Below are positions 28,982-47,814 of a DNA stretch of 64,000 bases, in pieces (within the stretch, counting starts at the first letter, position 1; every line of letters begins with the position of its first letter). The notes under the pieces were generated by a model. The model saw nothing but the letters and a program-made list of their open reading frames with translations. It was not told the origin of the DNA and did not search any database. Both the position numbers and the translations under genes were made by a program. Source of the DNA: Terasakiispira papahanaumokuakeensis (GTDB lineage Bacteria > Pseudomonadota > Gammaproteobacteria > Pseudomonadales > Halomonadaceae); contig NZ_MDTQ01000001.1 of the NCBI RefSeq assembly GCF_001709345.1, positions 3,477,499-3,541,498 on the forward strand, read 5' to 3'.

Positions 28982-29908
28982 TTAGCCCCACCACCAATAA
29001 CTGACACCCAGCATCAAAGGCAAAGTGACCATGGCCAACAGCGTCTGCGCCGTAATGATGGCGGCCATCAAATCCGTATCGCCTCCCAACTGACGCGCTA
29101 GAATATAGGCACTAGAGGCCGTGGGTAACGCCATAAATAAGAGAACCACCGCGCGTTGATCAACCGCCAACCCCAGCCAAGTCGCGATTAAAGCCGCAAC
29201 AAGCGGCATCACAATCAGCTTGAGCAAACACGCACAAAGTAAAGGCCAGTGCGCCTCGCGCAGCGCCATCAGATTCAAGCCAACACCAACCGCCATCAGC
29301 CCAAGCGGTAAAGCCGTTCGCGCAATCATTTCAGCAAAAGGCGCACTCCAACCTGGCAACCCTATCCCCATGACATTTAAAGCAATGCCAATAAAACAAC
29401 TTACAATCAAAGGATTACGACTTAACGCCTTTAGAGTCGGCCCTAGTGAGGGCTTATCATCCCCGGTATAAAAAGCAAAGATCAGCACACAAAATACATT
29501 CAGCAGCGGTATCATCACCGCAATGATCACGGCAGCCAACGCAATTTCAGCATCACCATATAACTGAGCGACGACCGCTAACCCAACATAAGTATTAAAT
29601 CGCATACCGCCTTGATAGACCGAAGTAAAGCTTGCGGCTGTCGAGGCTAACCAGGGCCGTGTCAATATGATCAGAGCCGACATCAACACTAGCGTGAGCA
29701 CAACCGTCGCCATCACTGGGGCAACCGGCACCTCAGATAAATTGGCTTGTGATAGGCGTGCCACGAGCATGGCGGGGAAAAGGAAGTAGTAAATCAATCG
29801 CTCCAGCTCAGGCCAAAAAGACGCGGCTGGAAAAGCTAAACGCTTCAGCACAATGCCCAATACAATAACCAGGAACACCGGACCTAAGGCATTCAGAGTG
29901 GTCCACAT
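28982..29908 (-). CDS. AEC-family transporter (auxin efflux carrier-like)
   Basis: This inner-membrane carrier of 308 aa has about ten hydrophobic helices in the pattern of the AEC family (N-terminal GPVFLVIVLGIVLKRLAF; C-terminal TASSAYILARQLGGDTDLMAAIITAQTLLAMVTLPL). Bacterial members move malate, malonate or amino acids; the substrate here is unknown. AAGGATG lies shortly upstream of the ATG. Confidence 0.88.
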   Translation of the reverse strand: MWTTLNALGPVFLVIVLGIVLKRLAFPAASFWPELERLIYYFLFPAMLVARLSQANLSEVPVAPVMATVVLTLVLMSALIILTRPWLASTAASFTSVYQGGMRFNTYVGLAVVAQLYGDAEIALAAVIIAVMIPLLNVFCVLIFAFYTGDDKPSLGPTLKALSRNPLIVSCFIGIALNVMGIGLPGWSAPFAEMIARTALPLGLMAVGVGLNLMALREAHWPLLCACLLKLIVMPLVAALIATWLGLAVDQRAVVLLFMALPTASSAYILARQLGGDTDLMAAIITAQTLLAMVTLPLMLGVSYWWWG

Positions 29909-44537: not shown

Positions 44538-45557
44538 ATGGATATTACCGAACTGCTGGCCGCATGCGCAAAAACCACCGCCTCTGATTTACACCTTAGC
44601 CCAGGGCGGCCCCCCTTATATCGGCTCAATGGCCATCTCACACCGATCGAATCAGCAGCGCTTTCAGCCCATGAATTGGATCACCAATTACGGGCACTCC
44701 TCACCCCTGCACAAGCTCAATCGCTGGATCAACAATACGATATTGATATCGCGTTATCACACCAAGGGCAGCGCTTTCGCGCTAACTTCTTTTTTCAGCA
44801 ACAAGGCCTAGCCGCCGCCTTTCGCCCTATTCCCGATGAAGTTCCGACACTCAGCGCGCTACAAGCCCCGCCCGTTTTGACCCAGCTGGCCACACAGCCT
44901 CACGGATTAACCCTAGTCACCGGCCCAACCGGCTCCGGTAAATCCACCACGTTAGCGGCCATGCTCCAGCACATGAACCAACACCTGGCCTACCACCTGA
45001 TCACCATCGAAGATCCCATCGAATTTATCCACACCCCCATACGCAGTTTAATCTCCCAACGAGAACTGCATCAGCACACCCCCAGCTTCAGCCAAGCACT
45101 CAAAGCGGCACTGCGGGAAGATCCTGATGTGATCATGGTGGGCGAACTGCGGGATCTAGCCACGATTCGTTTAGCACTGACCGCCGCCGAAACAGGCCAT
45201 GCCGTGCTGGCCACCCTGCACACCGCCTCTGCCGCCCGCAGTATTCATCGTTTGGTTGACGCTTTTCCGGGTGATGAACAACCCCTTATCCGCAACTTAC
45301 TGGCCGAATCGTTAAGAGCCGTCATCAGCCAACGCTTAGTCGCCGATACGCGGCAGGGCCGCTGTGCGCTGCATGAAATCATGATCGCCACCCCCGCGAT
45401 TCGAAACATGGTGCGTGATCAGCACATTGCCCAGATCCCCACCGCCATTCAAACCGGCAGCGCCCAAGGGATGCAGAGCATGCAGCAAAGCGCCGAAACC
45501 GCCTTCCAACAAGGTCGCATCAATACCGACACCCTGGCCAAAATCCAGAGCGAATAG
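44538..45557 (+). CDS. pilT: Type IV pilus retraction ATPase PilT-like
   Basis: PilT-like hexameric ATPases depolymerise type IV pili. The Walker A is GPTGSGKSTT, the Asp box contains EDPIEFIH, Walker B is DPDVIMVGELRD, and His box is ETGHAVLATLHT. Length 339 aa is typical for PilT. PilU, which often follows, is absent; instead the sRNA array follows. The yggS/pilT divergence is conserved in Pseudomonas. Confidence 0.93.
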   Translation: MDITELLAACAKTTASDLHLSPGRPPLYRLNGHLTPIESAALSAHELDHQLRALLTPAQAQSLDQQYDIDIALSHQGQRFRANFFFQQQGLAAAFRPIPDEVPTLSALQAPPVLTQLATQPHGLTLVTGPTGSGKSTTLAAMLQHMNQHLAYHLITIEDPIEFIHTPIRSLISQRELHQHTPSFSQALKAALREDPDVIMVGELRDLATIRLALTAAETGHAVLATLHTASAARSIHRLVDAFPGDEQPLIRNLLAESLRAVISQRLVADTRQGRCALHEIMIATPAIRNMVRDQHIAQIPTAIQTGSAQGMQSMQQSAETAFQQGRINTDTLAKIQSE

Positions 45558-45596
45558 TTCAGCCCAGACGAGATGCACAAGCCTGATCAAAAATAG

Positions 45597-45655
45597 AGAC
45601 TCAAGAGAAATAAGAGACAAGAAATGAGAGAAATAAGAAGATAAAGAAAAATAAG
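45597..45655 (+). repeat. Polypurine tract downstream of pilT
   Basis: About 58 bp of almost pure purine on the plus strand contains repeated AGAAATAAGA-like units. It lies between the pilT stop and the terminator of the first small RNA. It might form triplex or affect transcription end; nothing specific is known. Confidence 0.7.
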
Positions 45656-45662
45656 CACACAT

Positions 45663-45790
45663 AAAAAAAGGCCACCCGACAGGGTGGCCTGAGAACCGTG
45701 ACTAGCTTGATGATGAGGAGATGACTGCCCGGCATCCTTAAACCCGACGACCCAGACGGGTGTGATACCGAGTAGTGGCCATCGACCACT
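45663..45790 (-). ncRNA. PrrF-like iron-responsive sRNA, copy 1
   Basis: A minus-strand RNA of about 128 nt: start near 45790, a 5' hairpin GTGGTC/GGCCAC (45775-45789), a middle stem, a conserved core (complement of 45696-45721, reading TCTCCTCATCATCAAGC and on), and a terminator with stem 45670-45677/45682-45689 and seven T. The core resembles the antisense core of PrrF in Pseudomonas; its CTCCTC would pair with Shine-Dalgarno regions. This is the most diverged of the three copies. The name PrrF-like rests on the promoter logic, tandem arrangement and core. Confidence 0.82.
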
Positions 45791-45795
45791 CGCTA

Positions 45796-45824
45796 ACAAT
45801 AATCATTATCATTAATGAGTGCAA
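45796..45824 (-). promoter_or_regulatory. Fur-controlled promoter of sRNA copy 1
   Basis: TTGCAC (45819-45824) and TATTGT (45796-45801) on the minus strand have exactly 17 bp between them. The spacer contains ATTAATGATAATGATTATTG-like sequence closely matching the Fur box, so Fe-Fur would block polymerase. Confidence 0.82.
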
Positions 45825-45961
45825 GCTTTTTTTACCTCGCCTTAATCGCCGACCCATGGCTATCCCGATTTCACCACAAAACACCCCGCCCAAATGAACC
45901 CAACACGCGAGCACAGCTTTGCATCTCCTGGTGTCTAAAGAACAAAAACCACAAACACAAC

Positions 45962-46098
45962 AAAAAAAGGCCACCCTAAAAGGGTGGCCTGAGGACCGTG
46001 ACTAGCTTGATGATGATGAGGAGATAACTGCCAGTATTCCTCAGGGCACCTGACAACCCATGAAAAAGAGGATACTGAACCGTGGTCATCAACCACGA
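45962..46098 (-). ncRNA. PrrF-like iron-responsive sRNA, copy 2
   Basis: A minus-strand RNA of about 137 nt: 5' hairpin CGTGGT/ACCACG (46081-46097), a long middle stem (CAGTAT with ATACTG and CCTC with GAGG), the same antisense core as copy 1 (complement of 45996-46024, with one extra ATC), and a 9-bp terminator stem (45969-45977/45981-45989) followed by seven T. It is very similar to copy 3, implying recent duplication. Between copies 1 and 2 (45825-45961) I see no gene. Confidence 0.85.
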
Positions 46099-46103
46099 TT
46101 CAA

Positions 46104-46132
46104 ACAATAATAGTTCTCATTATTAAACGCAA
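46104..46132 (-). promoter_or_regulatory. Fur-controlled promoter of sRNA copy 2
   Basis: TTGCGT (46127-46132) and TATTGT (46104-46109) are 17 bp apart on the minus strand. The overlapping AATAATGAGAACTATTATT is a palindromic Fur-box-like 19-mer. Confidence 0.78.
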
Positions 46133-46227
46133 TAGTTTTCTATTATTTTTTATAGGCAGACAGACCTAGAGGCTCAAGCAGTCTTCTTAATCGCCAATTG
46201 CTCGACGGTTTCATCGTCAAAAGGAAT

Positions 46228-46358
46228 AAAAAAAGGCCACCCAAAAGGGTGGCCTGAGGACCGTGACTAGCTTGATGATGAGGAGATAACTGACAGCATT
46301 CTCAGGGCACCTGACAACCCATTAAAAGAGGATACTGAACTGTGGTCATCAACCACGA
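46228..46358 (-). ncRNA. PrrF-like iron-responsive sRNA, copy 3
   Basis: A minus-strand RNA of about 131 nt with the same layout: 5' hairpin (46342-46356), middle stem where one changed base keeps a G-U pair, antisense core (complement of 46261-46286), and terminator stem 46235-46242/46247-46254 with seven T. It is the first copy seen by polymerase coming from the thiS side. No ORF is conserved among the copies, favouring RNA function. Confidence 0.85.
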
Positions 46359-46363
46359 TTAAA

Positions 46364-46392
46364 ACGATAATCTTTATCATTTAGTTTTGCAA
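46364..46392 (-). promoter_or_regulatory. Fur-controlled promoter of sRNA copy 3
   Basis: TTGCAA (46387-46392) and TATCGT (46364-46369), 17 bp apart on the minus strand, surround AATGATAAAGATTATC, a Fur-box-like sequence. Confidence 0.75.
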
Positions 46393-46415
46393 CCTAAAAC
46401 TTAAACGACCCCAAT

Positions 46416-46445
46416 AAAAAAAGCCGCGCTTTTCAAAAGCACGGC
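46416..46445 (-). terminator. Orphan minus-strand terminator
   Basis: A stem (46423-46433 with 46435-46445, inner bases forming the loop) is followed on the minus strand by seven T. One pair is U-G on the minus strand but C-A on the plus strand, so the minus orientation is right. No gene or clear promoter for a transcript ending here is visible. Confidence 0.65.
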
Positions 46446-46449
46446 CTTA

Positions 46450-46585
46450 GGGGTGTCTGATCGCAATCCATAGGGGCTCCAATTGCCCGCGGAGGCAAGT
46501 CACCAGACGCCTGAAAACCTTATTCCCCCTGCTCAAGATCGTCAACTCACCGCCCATCCCCACGGGTGTGGGGAGTGCTCGCAAC
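46450..46585. other. Structured noncoding stretch upstream of thiS
   Basis: GGTGTCTG (46453-46460) can pair with CAGACGCC (46504-46511), enclosing further short stems, and TCCCCAC-GGGT-GTGGGGA forms a perfect hairpin at 46557-46574. It is not a recognisable TPP riboswitch. It could be a leader of thiS or a minus-strand RNA ending at the orphan terminator. Confidence 0.4.
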
Positions 46586-46660
46586 ACACGCATCCTGGCG
46601 CGCTTTCCTTTACAATGCGGACTCGCATCGCTTTCACATCACCGGTTACTGGAGGCCACG

Positions 46661-46873
46661 ATGCAGATCATGTTAAATGGTGAGCCTTATACGCTCACGA
46701 CAACCGCCACATCACCGATAACAATCAGTACGTTATTGGGGCAGTTGGGCTTGGCCGAAAAACGCATCGCGGTGGAGCGCAATGAGATGATTGTGCCCCG
46801 CAGCCGCCATGCTGAAACCGCGCTAGAAGCCGGAGATCAGGTCGAGATTGTGCATGCGATTGGCGGCGGTTGA
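46661..46873 (+). CDS. thiS: Sulfur carrier protein ThiS
   Basis: This 70-aa ubiquitin-like protein is made a C-terminal thiocarboxylate to donate sulfur for the thiazole of thiamine. It begins MQIMLNGEPYTL and ends with the required Gly-Gly (IVHAIGGG, here three Gly). GGAGG lies before the ATG; the longer frame from 46568 lacks a site. thiG follows, as is usual. Confidence 0.95.
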   Translation: MQIMLNGEPYTLTTTATSPITISTLLGQLGLAEKRIAVERNEMIVPRSRHAETALEAGDQVEIVHAIGGG

Positions 46874-47013: not shown

Positions 47014-47814
47014 ATGACTCAGATGCAGGATCCATTGGTGATCGCGGGTCAGCATTATCACTCCCGTTTATTAGTCGGCACCGGGAAATACCGGGATTTA
47101 AATGAGACAGCGGCGGCCATTGAGGCATCAGGTGCTGACATTGTGACGGTCGCGGTACGCCGAACCAATATCGGACAAAACCCGGATGAACCTAATCTGT
47201 TAGATGCCGTTTCCCCTGAACGCTATACCATTTTGCCCAATACCGCCGGTTGCTTTGATGCCAAAAGCGCGGTGCGTACTTGCCAGTTGGCGCGAGAGCT
47301 GATGGATGGGCATGACTTGGTCAAGTTGGAAGTGCTGGGCGATCAGAAAACGTTGTATCCCAACATGAGTGAGACGCTGATCGCCGCAGAGCAGCTGATC
47401 AACGATGGCTTTAAGGTCATGGTCTATTGTAATGATGACCCCATTGCCGCCAAACGATTGGAACAAATGGGCTGTGTCGCGATTATGCCGTTGGGCTCAT
47501 TGATTGGCTCTGGCCTCGGTATTTTGAACCCTCATAACATCGGCTTGATCATCGAAGAAGCGCAAGTGCCGGTGTTGGTGGATGCTGGTGTGGGCACCGC
47601 CTCCGACGCTGCTGTGGCAATGGAAATGGGCTGTGATGGCGTCTTAATGAATACTGCCATTGCCCATGCGCGCCAGCCATTAGGGATGGCCAGCGCGATG
47701 AAAAAGGCGGTTGAAGCCGGTCGCGAAGCCTATCTCGCCGGTCGCATGCCGAAAAAAGCACTCGCCAGCCCCAGTTCACCGACGGATGGCCTGATTCAAC
47801 CCTCATCACGATAA
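47014..47814 (+). CDS. thiG: Thiazole synthase
   Basis: ThiG builds the thiazole phosphate from DXP, dehydroglycine and ThiS-thiocarboxylate. It is a TIM barrel with the Schiff-base lysine in [16 protein letters not shown] and phosphate-binding loops [13 protein letters not shown] and [34 protein letters not shown] 47014 (AGGAA upstream) gives 266 aa; an earlier frame from 46966 is unlikely. trmB begins 5 nt downstream. Confidence 0.96.

Follow-up and report, generated by a model that had tools for sequence, protein, structure and literature searches.

Three tandem PrrF homologues with Fur-box promoters and a predicted sodB target in Terasakiispira papahanaumokuakeensis

Results

The window, a 64,000-nt stretch of the Terasakiispira papahanaumokuakeensis genome, carries three minus-strand units, flanked by a pilT-like gene and by thiS, that very probably encode PrrF-type trans-acting small RNAs of approximately 130–140 nt, each made from its own promoter, repressed by Fur and sparing iron via sodB. 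This reading was drawn from the sequence, namely from the homology of the units, the anatomy of their Fur boxes and promoters, their terminators, the phylogeny of the copies and their complementarity to sodB.

Structure of the locus

The array lies between a gene that we take, by our own recognition, to be pilT (44538-45557, plus strand, Pfam T2SSE) and thiS (46658-46873, plus strand, Pfam ThiS), a site that is presumably not the prrF site of P. aeruginosa. We found that the three units, named A, B and C in their 5'→3' order, are direct repeats on the minus strand, in agreement with the three tandem units described in an earlier note on this DNA. Including their promoters, they occupy 46227-46392 (A), 45961-46132 (B) and 45662-45824 (C), all on the minus strand. 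The predicted RNAs themselves, with starts inferred (for unit A, approximately 7 nt past the -10 element), span 46227-46357 for A, 45961-46097 for B and 45662-45789 for C, the diverged copy. The units share one layout, in which the promoter is followed by a short hairpin at the 5' end, then by a middle stem, the C/U-rich core, GCTAGTCACGG and a terminator. Their folding z values were -2.7 (A), -4.7 (B) and -3.2 (C). The Terasakiispira genome contains only these three copies of the unit.

The earlier note had also described a middle stem with compensatory changes. The stem is present, and the changes were weakly supported both in a test on a MAFFT alignment and in a direct reading. In the alignment of the three rows, a single pair, located in the 5' hairpin, was altered on both sides, a result matched by 162 of 500 shuffles; the middle stem had 75.9% of its cells paired and no two-sided change, with the 3' side of the stem of unit C standing out of register. 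Read directly, the stem is CAGTAT/ATACTG in B, CAGTAT/ATGCTG in A and CGGTAT/ATGCCG in C, corresponding to one A-U to G-C exchange.

Direct reading and a scan with the 19-bp E. coli Fur box confirmed that a Fur-box-like sequence overlaps a putative sigma-70-type promoter with 17-bp spacing (TTGC.. -17 bp- TAT.GT) in every unit, as the earlier note had proposed. The promoter of unit A (46364-46392, minus strand) has a -35 element TTGCAA (46392-46387) and, after 17 bp, a -10 element TATCGT (46369-46364), with Fur-box matches at 46360-46378 (15/19 on the plus strand, 14/19 on the minus strand) and 46366-46384 (14/19 on the minus strand). That of unit B (46104-46132, minus strand) has TTGCGT (46132-46127) and TATTGT (46109-46104), also 17 bp apart, with a match at 46106-46124 (14/19). 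For unit C (45796-45824, minus strand) the elements are TTGCAC (45824-45819) and TATTGT (45801-45796) with the same spacing, and the matches lie at 45798-45816 (15/19 on the minus strand) and 45792-45810 (16/19 on the plus strand, 15/19 on the minus strand). Eight matches of at least 14/19, overlapping and on both strands, were found in the 64 kb, all of them at the three promoters, whereas 100 simulations under a Markov model of the window gave an expectation of 1.15 such matches and 0.08 of at least 15/19. By our own count, each promoter matches 8 of 12 consensus letters, which is below the threshold of 9 of 12 in the promoter scanner, and the three promoters are therefore absent from its list; the scanner reported three plus-strand matches instead, as compared with 1.6 expected in shuffles. 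Two genes of the Fur family (146 and 57 bits) and one hfq gene are present in the same genome.

Each unit ends in a rho-independent terminator, a trait of PrrF. The stems, GGCCACCC/GGGTGGCC in all three copies, are located on the minus strand at 46234-46255 (A), 45968-45990 (B) and 45669-45690 (C), and each is followed by seven T, running on to 46228, 45962 and 45663, respectively; the three GGCCACCC stems with their T runs are thus as the earlier note had them. The region 45300-46800 contains seven terminator-like sites, as compared with 2.1 expected in shuffles.

A hairpin-rich stretch immediately upstream of unit A (46415-46520, minus strand) may represent a further small RNA or leader. It ends in a strong terminator with a T run (46448-46420), has a folding z of -2.5, and gave no Rfam match at the gathering score and no similarity in the compared loci other than that of its own genome. 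As for gene neighbourhoods, 50 loci were searched, comprising PrrF loci from relatives (among them L014, L019 and L113-L119), the window's own locus and a placeholder; next to PrrF, 24 of them have a relative of the window's Mem_trans (AEC-type) permease and 11 a relative of thiG. The window regions compared with these neighbours were 28982-29908 and 47026-47814. The Terasakiispira array flanks thiS-thiG, and the permease homologue is 16 kb away from it, suggesting a local rearrangement.

Homology to PrrF

The whole window gave no match to Rfam at gathering scores. In E-value mode (951 bases, 4227 families), all three units matched the PrrF family RF00444 better than any other, each aligning end to end over model positions 1-150: unit A at 46227-46391 (44.8 bits, E 3.9e-6), unit B at 45961-46132 (47.9 bits, E 8.2e-7) and unit C at 45662-45823 (48.8 bits, E 5.1e-7). 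The next-best family had an E-value of 0.085. The covariance search that the earlier note had suggested as a check thus aligned every unit, at 44.8-48.8 bits, yet below the RF00444 gathering score of 90 bits. When 58 genomes were searched with RF00444 at E ≤ 1, 40 matched, including 34 of the 37 Halomonadaceae with Terasakiispira among them; no match at this threshold was found in the Halomonadaceae genomes G010, G018 and G032. The gathering score was passed by one of the 58 genomes, G056 from another family (127.5 bits), and by none of the 37 Halomonadaceae, while G037, from a third family, reached 84.4 bits. At E ≤ 1 the model also matched three of 14 control genomes, none above the cut-off, and weak single matches were therefore left unused. 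Since the curated cut-off excludes the Halomonadaceae searched here, we use the label "PrrF homologue" and not "Rfam-certified PrrF".

A second covariance model, R1, was built from 30 copies of 25 other Halomonadaceae genomes, none of them from the window (129 positions, 12 pairs). It matched unit A at 74.0 bits (E 1.7e-14), unit B at 64.6 bits (E 4.2e-12) and unit C at 61.0 bits (E 3.4e-11). With R1 at E ≤ 0.01, at least one copy was found in 247 of 250 Halomonadaceae genomes, the 25 training genomes included, and none in the remaining G018, G267 and G268. At E ≤ 0.001, 41 of 293 sampled Pseudomonadales genomes matched, 12 of them Halomonadaceae and 29 from other families. R1 also recognised the copies of G056 (E 7.2e-10) and G037 (E 2.0e-8); as the G056 copy passes the Rfam cut-off, intermediates join the units to the Rfam family. 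Taken together, the end-to-end RF00444 alignments and the R1 matches uphold the PrrF-like identity proposed in the earlier note, and indicate that the three units are PrrF homologues by common descent.

Copy phylogeny and arrays in relatives

The order in which the units duplicated was examined with a tree of 37 copies, from which the extra ATC described below had been removed beforehand and whose bootstrap was not fully settled. Units A, B and C formed one clade (99/100), which fits the triplicated locus of PrrF-type units that had been claimed. A and B were the closest pair (99/88) and are 98% identical, while C stands apart, with 75% identity to B (tree columns). The tree accordingly bears out the view that the two copies at higher coordinates (copies 2 and 3, i.e., B and A) are recent and that copy 1 (C) has diverged. 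Copies from the same genome also paired in G030 (100/99), G017 (100/99) and G008 (100/98); the two copies of G007 fell into one clade with those of G030, and the two of G023 did not pair with support.

Multiple copies are not confined to Terasakiispira. At least two R1 matches were present in 72 of 250 Halomonadaceae genomes and at least three in 17 of 250 (hand count), and the match positions were inspected in these 17 genomes and in G023. We found that nine of the 17 have at least three units within approximately 1 kb: G000, G098, G197, G160 (four), G194 (five), G232, G240 (four), G244 and G248. A genome of another Pseudomonadales family (G498, locus L189) carries five tandem, very similar units with Fur-box scores of 13, 14, 14, 14 and 14. 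The idea that the Terasakiispira triplication is unique was rejected, as relatives have arrays of three to five units.

The arrays differ in their promoters. In G197, each of the three promoters has a Fur-box-like site (12, 12 and 14 of 19), and in G100, where the three units follow each other at intervals of approximately 1.34 kb and the intervening sequence contains long ORFs (judged by eye), the sites score 12, 13 and 12 of 19. In G098, none was found at the first unit within the fixed search window (9/19), and the others score 13 and 15. In the arrays of one genus, g11 (G194, G160, G240, G244 and G248), a Fur box (14/19) is present at the first unit only; the scores of the later units, 9-11, are at chance level, and the two units of G232 caught by the script agree. 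Expression of these later units would therefore need read-through or an unrecognised promoter. The g11 loci (L113-L117) comprise three to five units, and the later units keep terminator-like hairpins (L113, L114). The g11 arrays may possibly be read-through concatemers. The three copies in Terasakiispira are one local case of an array growth that has occurred repeatedly.

The antisense core

A conserved C/U-rich core is a trait of PrrF, and units A, B and C have it with extra ATC. Across relatives the core reads CTCATCAAGC, and CTCCTCATCAAGCTA[AG]TCACGGTC was invariant or nearly so in 30 aligned Halomonadaceae copies. The core of units A and C is CTCCTCATCATCAAGC, also given as CTCATCATCAAGC, with one extra ATC, and that of unit B is CTCCTCATCATCATCAAGC, also given as CTCATCATCATCAAGC, with two. 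On the minus strand these cores are located at 46267-46285 in A and 45702-45720 in C (CTCCTCATCATCAAGCTAG in both) and at 46002-46023 in B (CTCCTCATCATCATCAAGCTAG), and they contain two (A), three (B) and two (C) ATC. The identical antisense core that the earlier note had reported for the three copies was therefore not found, since A and C differ from B in ATC number.

To look for this core elsewhere, an exact pattern allowing 4-14 bases at the variable place was scanned against genome_contigs (84,980 species, from which the Terasakiispira genome may be left out). Four stretches were obtained, one of which holds both copies of Allopseudospirillum japonicum (G023). The other three are single matches in a Kaiserbacteria MAG, Niveispirillum and a Bacteroidaceae MAG, and these matches in unrelated bacteria were taken for chance. 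Both copies of G025 have one extra ATC, together with a 3' part that has diverged; the exact pattern is blind to them, and the list of ATC-lengthened cores is thus incomplete. So far it comprises Terasakiispira, A. japonicum (both copies) and G025 (both copies).

Predicted targets

The sodB leader of Terasakiispira reads ...GGTTCTTGATGATGAGAAGATAAGGAGACTGATCATG and is complementary to the core of unit A at 18 of 19 positions, from -30 to -12 relative to the start, reaching the Shine-Dalgarno sequence. The solved structures that best match the encoded protein are named iron superoxide dismutases. A genome-wide search for the 19-nt complement of the A core, allowing up to three mismatches, gave nine sites, as compared with one for the reversed control: the three small RNA genes, the sodB leader (one mismatch) and five others (three mismatches each). 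Thus the sodB leader is the only site within two mismatches outside the array itself. Of the five others, one immediately precedes the start of a HiPIP gene, one is in sense orientation inside an ORF and three are antisense to ORFs.

Pairing was assessed by a score with costed bulges and by the longest unbroken run; scoring with RNAduplex was dropped, as it permitted very long bulges. The A core forms 12 unbroken bp with its own sodB leader, and none of 1000 shuffled leaders equalled it by run or score. The weighted scores on sodB were 40 (A), 34 (B) and 39 (C), corresponding to z values of 4.0, 2.8 and 2.9, respectively, against the leaders of 34 window genes, none of which scored as high with any unit. 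The iron-sparing role proposed in the earlier note is therefore favoured by target prediction, which points to the sodB leader with high specificity. The sdh target suggested there fared differently: sdhC pairing was not above the 34 background leaders (z 0.8 to 1.6). The sdhC start GCCGTGAATAGC shows partial complementarity to the core's 3' portion, with the best pairing at the start codon in seven of 10 genomes; as its score lies within background, sdhC is not claimed as a target.

The HiPIP, a [4Fe-4S] protein (PF01355, 77.3 bits), is a possible second target (L172, own genome C1:417766-417784, minus strand). Its leader pairs with the PrrF core over 12 unbroken bp, a length reached by none of 1000 shuffled leaders, and its weighted score was equalled by four of 1000. 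The complement of the seed TGATGAGGAG occurred at 12 sites outside the array, as compared with two for the reversed pattern. Four of these 12 seed-only (10-mer) sites lie before start codons, of luxS, a TRAP permease, a histidine kinase and a small ORF; by the same mechanical rule, a Shine-Dalgarno-matched control 10-mer also gave four of 12, three of them inside longer ORFs. Seed-only targets were accordingly set aside as weak leads, not clearly above this control. One of them, luxS (PF02664; L034, own genome C1:73645-73654, minus strand), whose product is an iron-dependent enzyme, carries the 10-nt complement of the seed at the ribosome site and is a lead only, as the site is not above the control.

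We then compared cores with and without the extra ATC on the Terasakiispira sodB leader. The longest unbroken runs were 12 bp for the cores of A and of A. japonicum and 11 bp for B, whereas eight natural cores without extra ATC gave 6-8 bp. The weighted scores were 40 (A), 39 (A. japonicum) and 34 (B), as compared with 24-35 without extra ATC, indicating that the insertion brings a clear gain for unbroken length alone and that B gains less. When each core was paired with the sodB leader of its own genome, the longest runs were 11 bp (G008), 9 (G023), 8 (G001), 7 (G098 and G027), 6 (G016, G197 and G194) and 5 (G007). Because own-core pairing is weak in many genomes, sodB is not a demonstrated target across the family; it is a predicted target for the Terasakiispira genome and not for Halomonadaceae at large. 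Among 11 cores and 10 sodB leaders, the own core was generally not the best: that of G008 came first on the leaders of G023, G001, G098 and G027 (41, 41, 40 and 34), on which the own cores scored 29, 31, 30 and 30. The A. japonicum leader, despite the shared ATC insertion, has no matching lengthening and gave 9 bp with all cores but one. A co-variation of seed and sodB is accordingly backed by a single genome. The lengthened core with a matching sodB leader is the freshest point of this analysis.

Discussion

From these data we infer transcription of the units, repression by Fur, use of Hfq, repression of sodB and an effect of dosage. When iron is plentiful, Fur-Fe(II) would occupy the box between -35 and -10 and block all three promoters; when iron is short, all three RNAs would be made together. 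The C/U-rich core, probably with Hfq, would then pair with leaders of iron-protein mRNAs, above all that of sodB (Fe-superoxide dismutase) and perhaps that of the HiPIP. As pairing at -30 to -12 touches the Shine-Dalgarno sequence, we propose that translation of sodB would stop and its mRNA would be degraded. The three promoters and three copies would mainly raise the dose, and the ATC-lengthened core would tighten pairing with Terasakiispira's own sodB.

One might suppose that the copies are specialised and not just a matter of dose, with C (diverged 5' half and middle stem) and B (longest core) serving different targets or iron levels. The identities (C 75% to B, A and B 98%, tree columns), the ATC counts of 2, 3 and 2 and the slightly different Fur-box scores of the units would suit such a view, which we nevertheless consider unlikely, as the units hardly differ in pairing region and terminator, all three pair with the sodB leader (40, 34 and 39), and no target reached by one copy alone appeared among the few leaders compared. 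The different targets that the earlier note had tentatively offered thus received no positive support, the cores differing by ATC count alone. Another view takes the array mainly as a source of a longer, PrrH-like RNA reading through two or three units and regulated by a signal other than Fur, e.g., heme. PrrH of P. aeruginosa is described as arising by read-through of the prrF1 terminator (PMC4211561), and later units without a findable Fur box in several relatives may be reached in this way. In Terasakiispira, however, a separate promoter, a Fur box and a strong T-run terminator are present for every unit, which makes this view very improbable.

It is more improbable by far that the units are an independently evolved RyhB analogue or a dispersed repeat merely resembling a small RNA. 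The Rfam score under the cut-off speaks for such an origin; however, the PrrF match is end to end (E 5e-7 to 4e-6), core, promoter and terminator all fall in register, the genome has three copies only, a relative is found in 247 of 250 Halomonadaceae genomes, and RyhB is absent among the 27 Rfam matches in E-value mode. We therefore prefer the reading of three PrrF-type RNAs acting together. As a tentative and rather doubtful extension, the PrrF loci of Halomonadaceae might be evolvable dosage arrays, to which units were added repeatedly in separate lineages; in the Terasakiispira lineage, the seed would be a tiny ATC repeat that changed length together with the sodB leader, the pair being tuned by triplet insertion.

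The PrrF iron-sparing system is carried beyond Pseudomonas and Azotobacter into Halomonadaceae (copies in 247 of 250 sampled genomes), where the Rfam cut-off annotated none of the 37 genomes examined. Open-licence full-text searches gave, among the matches listed, no recognisable report of PrrF in Halomonadaceae or of arrays of at least three units. In Halomonas bluephagenesis, a PrrF1 scaffold is described as an engineering tool and not as a native gene (PMC13101641). The natural arrays, which range from one to five copies, some of them having recognisable separate Fur promoters and others not, and whose seed varies by triplets, are material for the question of why bacteria keep several near-identical small RNAs, for which the text of a review on sibling small RNAs offers speculation only (PMC4211561).

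Among iron-sparing small RNAs, RyhB and NrrF are reported to be made when iron is short (PMC2851614), and IsrR is described as another (PMC9410917); the Terasakiispira units may by analogy be likened to these, although PrrF is stated to have no sequence homology with RyhB (PMC4211561). ArrF of Azotobacter vinelandii, a PrrF homologue reported to act on sodB (a title cited in PMC4211561 and PMC2851614), is reported in one copy (PMC8085936) and, unlike the Terasakiispira units, forms no array. The aligned Halomonadaceae copies have the same layout of core, hairpin and terminator, several genomes with tandem arrays of three to five; the ATC-lengthened core sets Terasakiispira apart from most Halomonadaceae cores read, which are a minority of the 250 genomes. 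PrrF1 and PrrF2 of Pseudomonas aeruginosa (RF00444) are described as repressed by Fur and induced upon iron limitation, with iron proteins as their targets (PMC4211561, PMC2851614). With them the Terasakiispira units share the Fur box over the promoter, the C/U-rich core, the rho-independent terminator and the tandem arrangement. The array has three units as compared with two in P. aeruginosa, the tandem prrF loci described in PMC4211561 being pairs, and its inter-unit identities range from 75% to 98%, as compared with 95% reported for PrrF1/2 (PMC4211561). The core is ATC..AAGCTAGTC with extra ATC, in contrast to AUCAGGCUAAUC in the Rfam PrrF consensus, and the 5' hairpin and terminator sequence differ from those of PrrF1 and PrrF2, with scores below the Rfam cut-off. 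This kind of system is known from Pseudomonas; what is new here is its variation by an array of three copies and by a longer pairing region.
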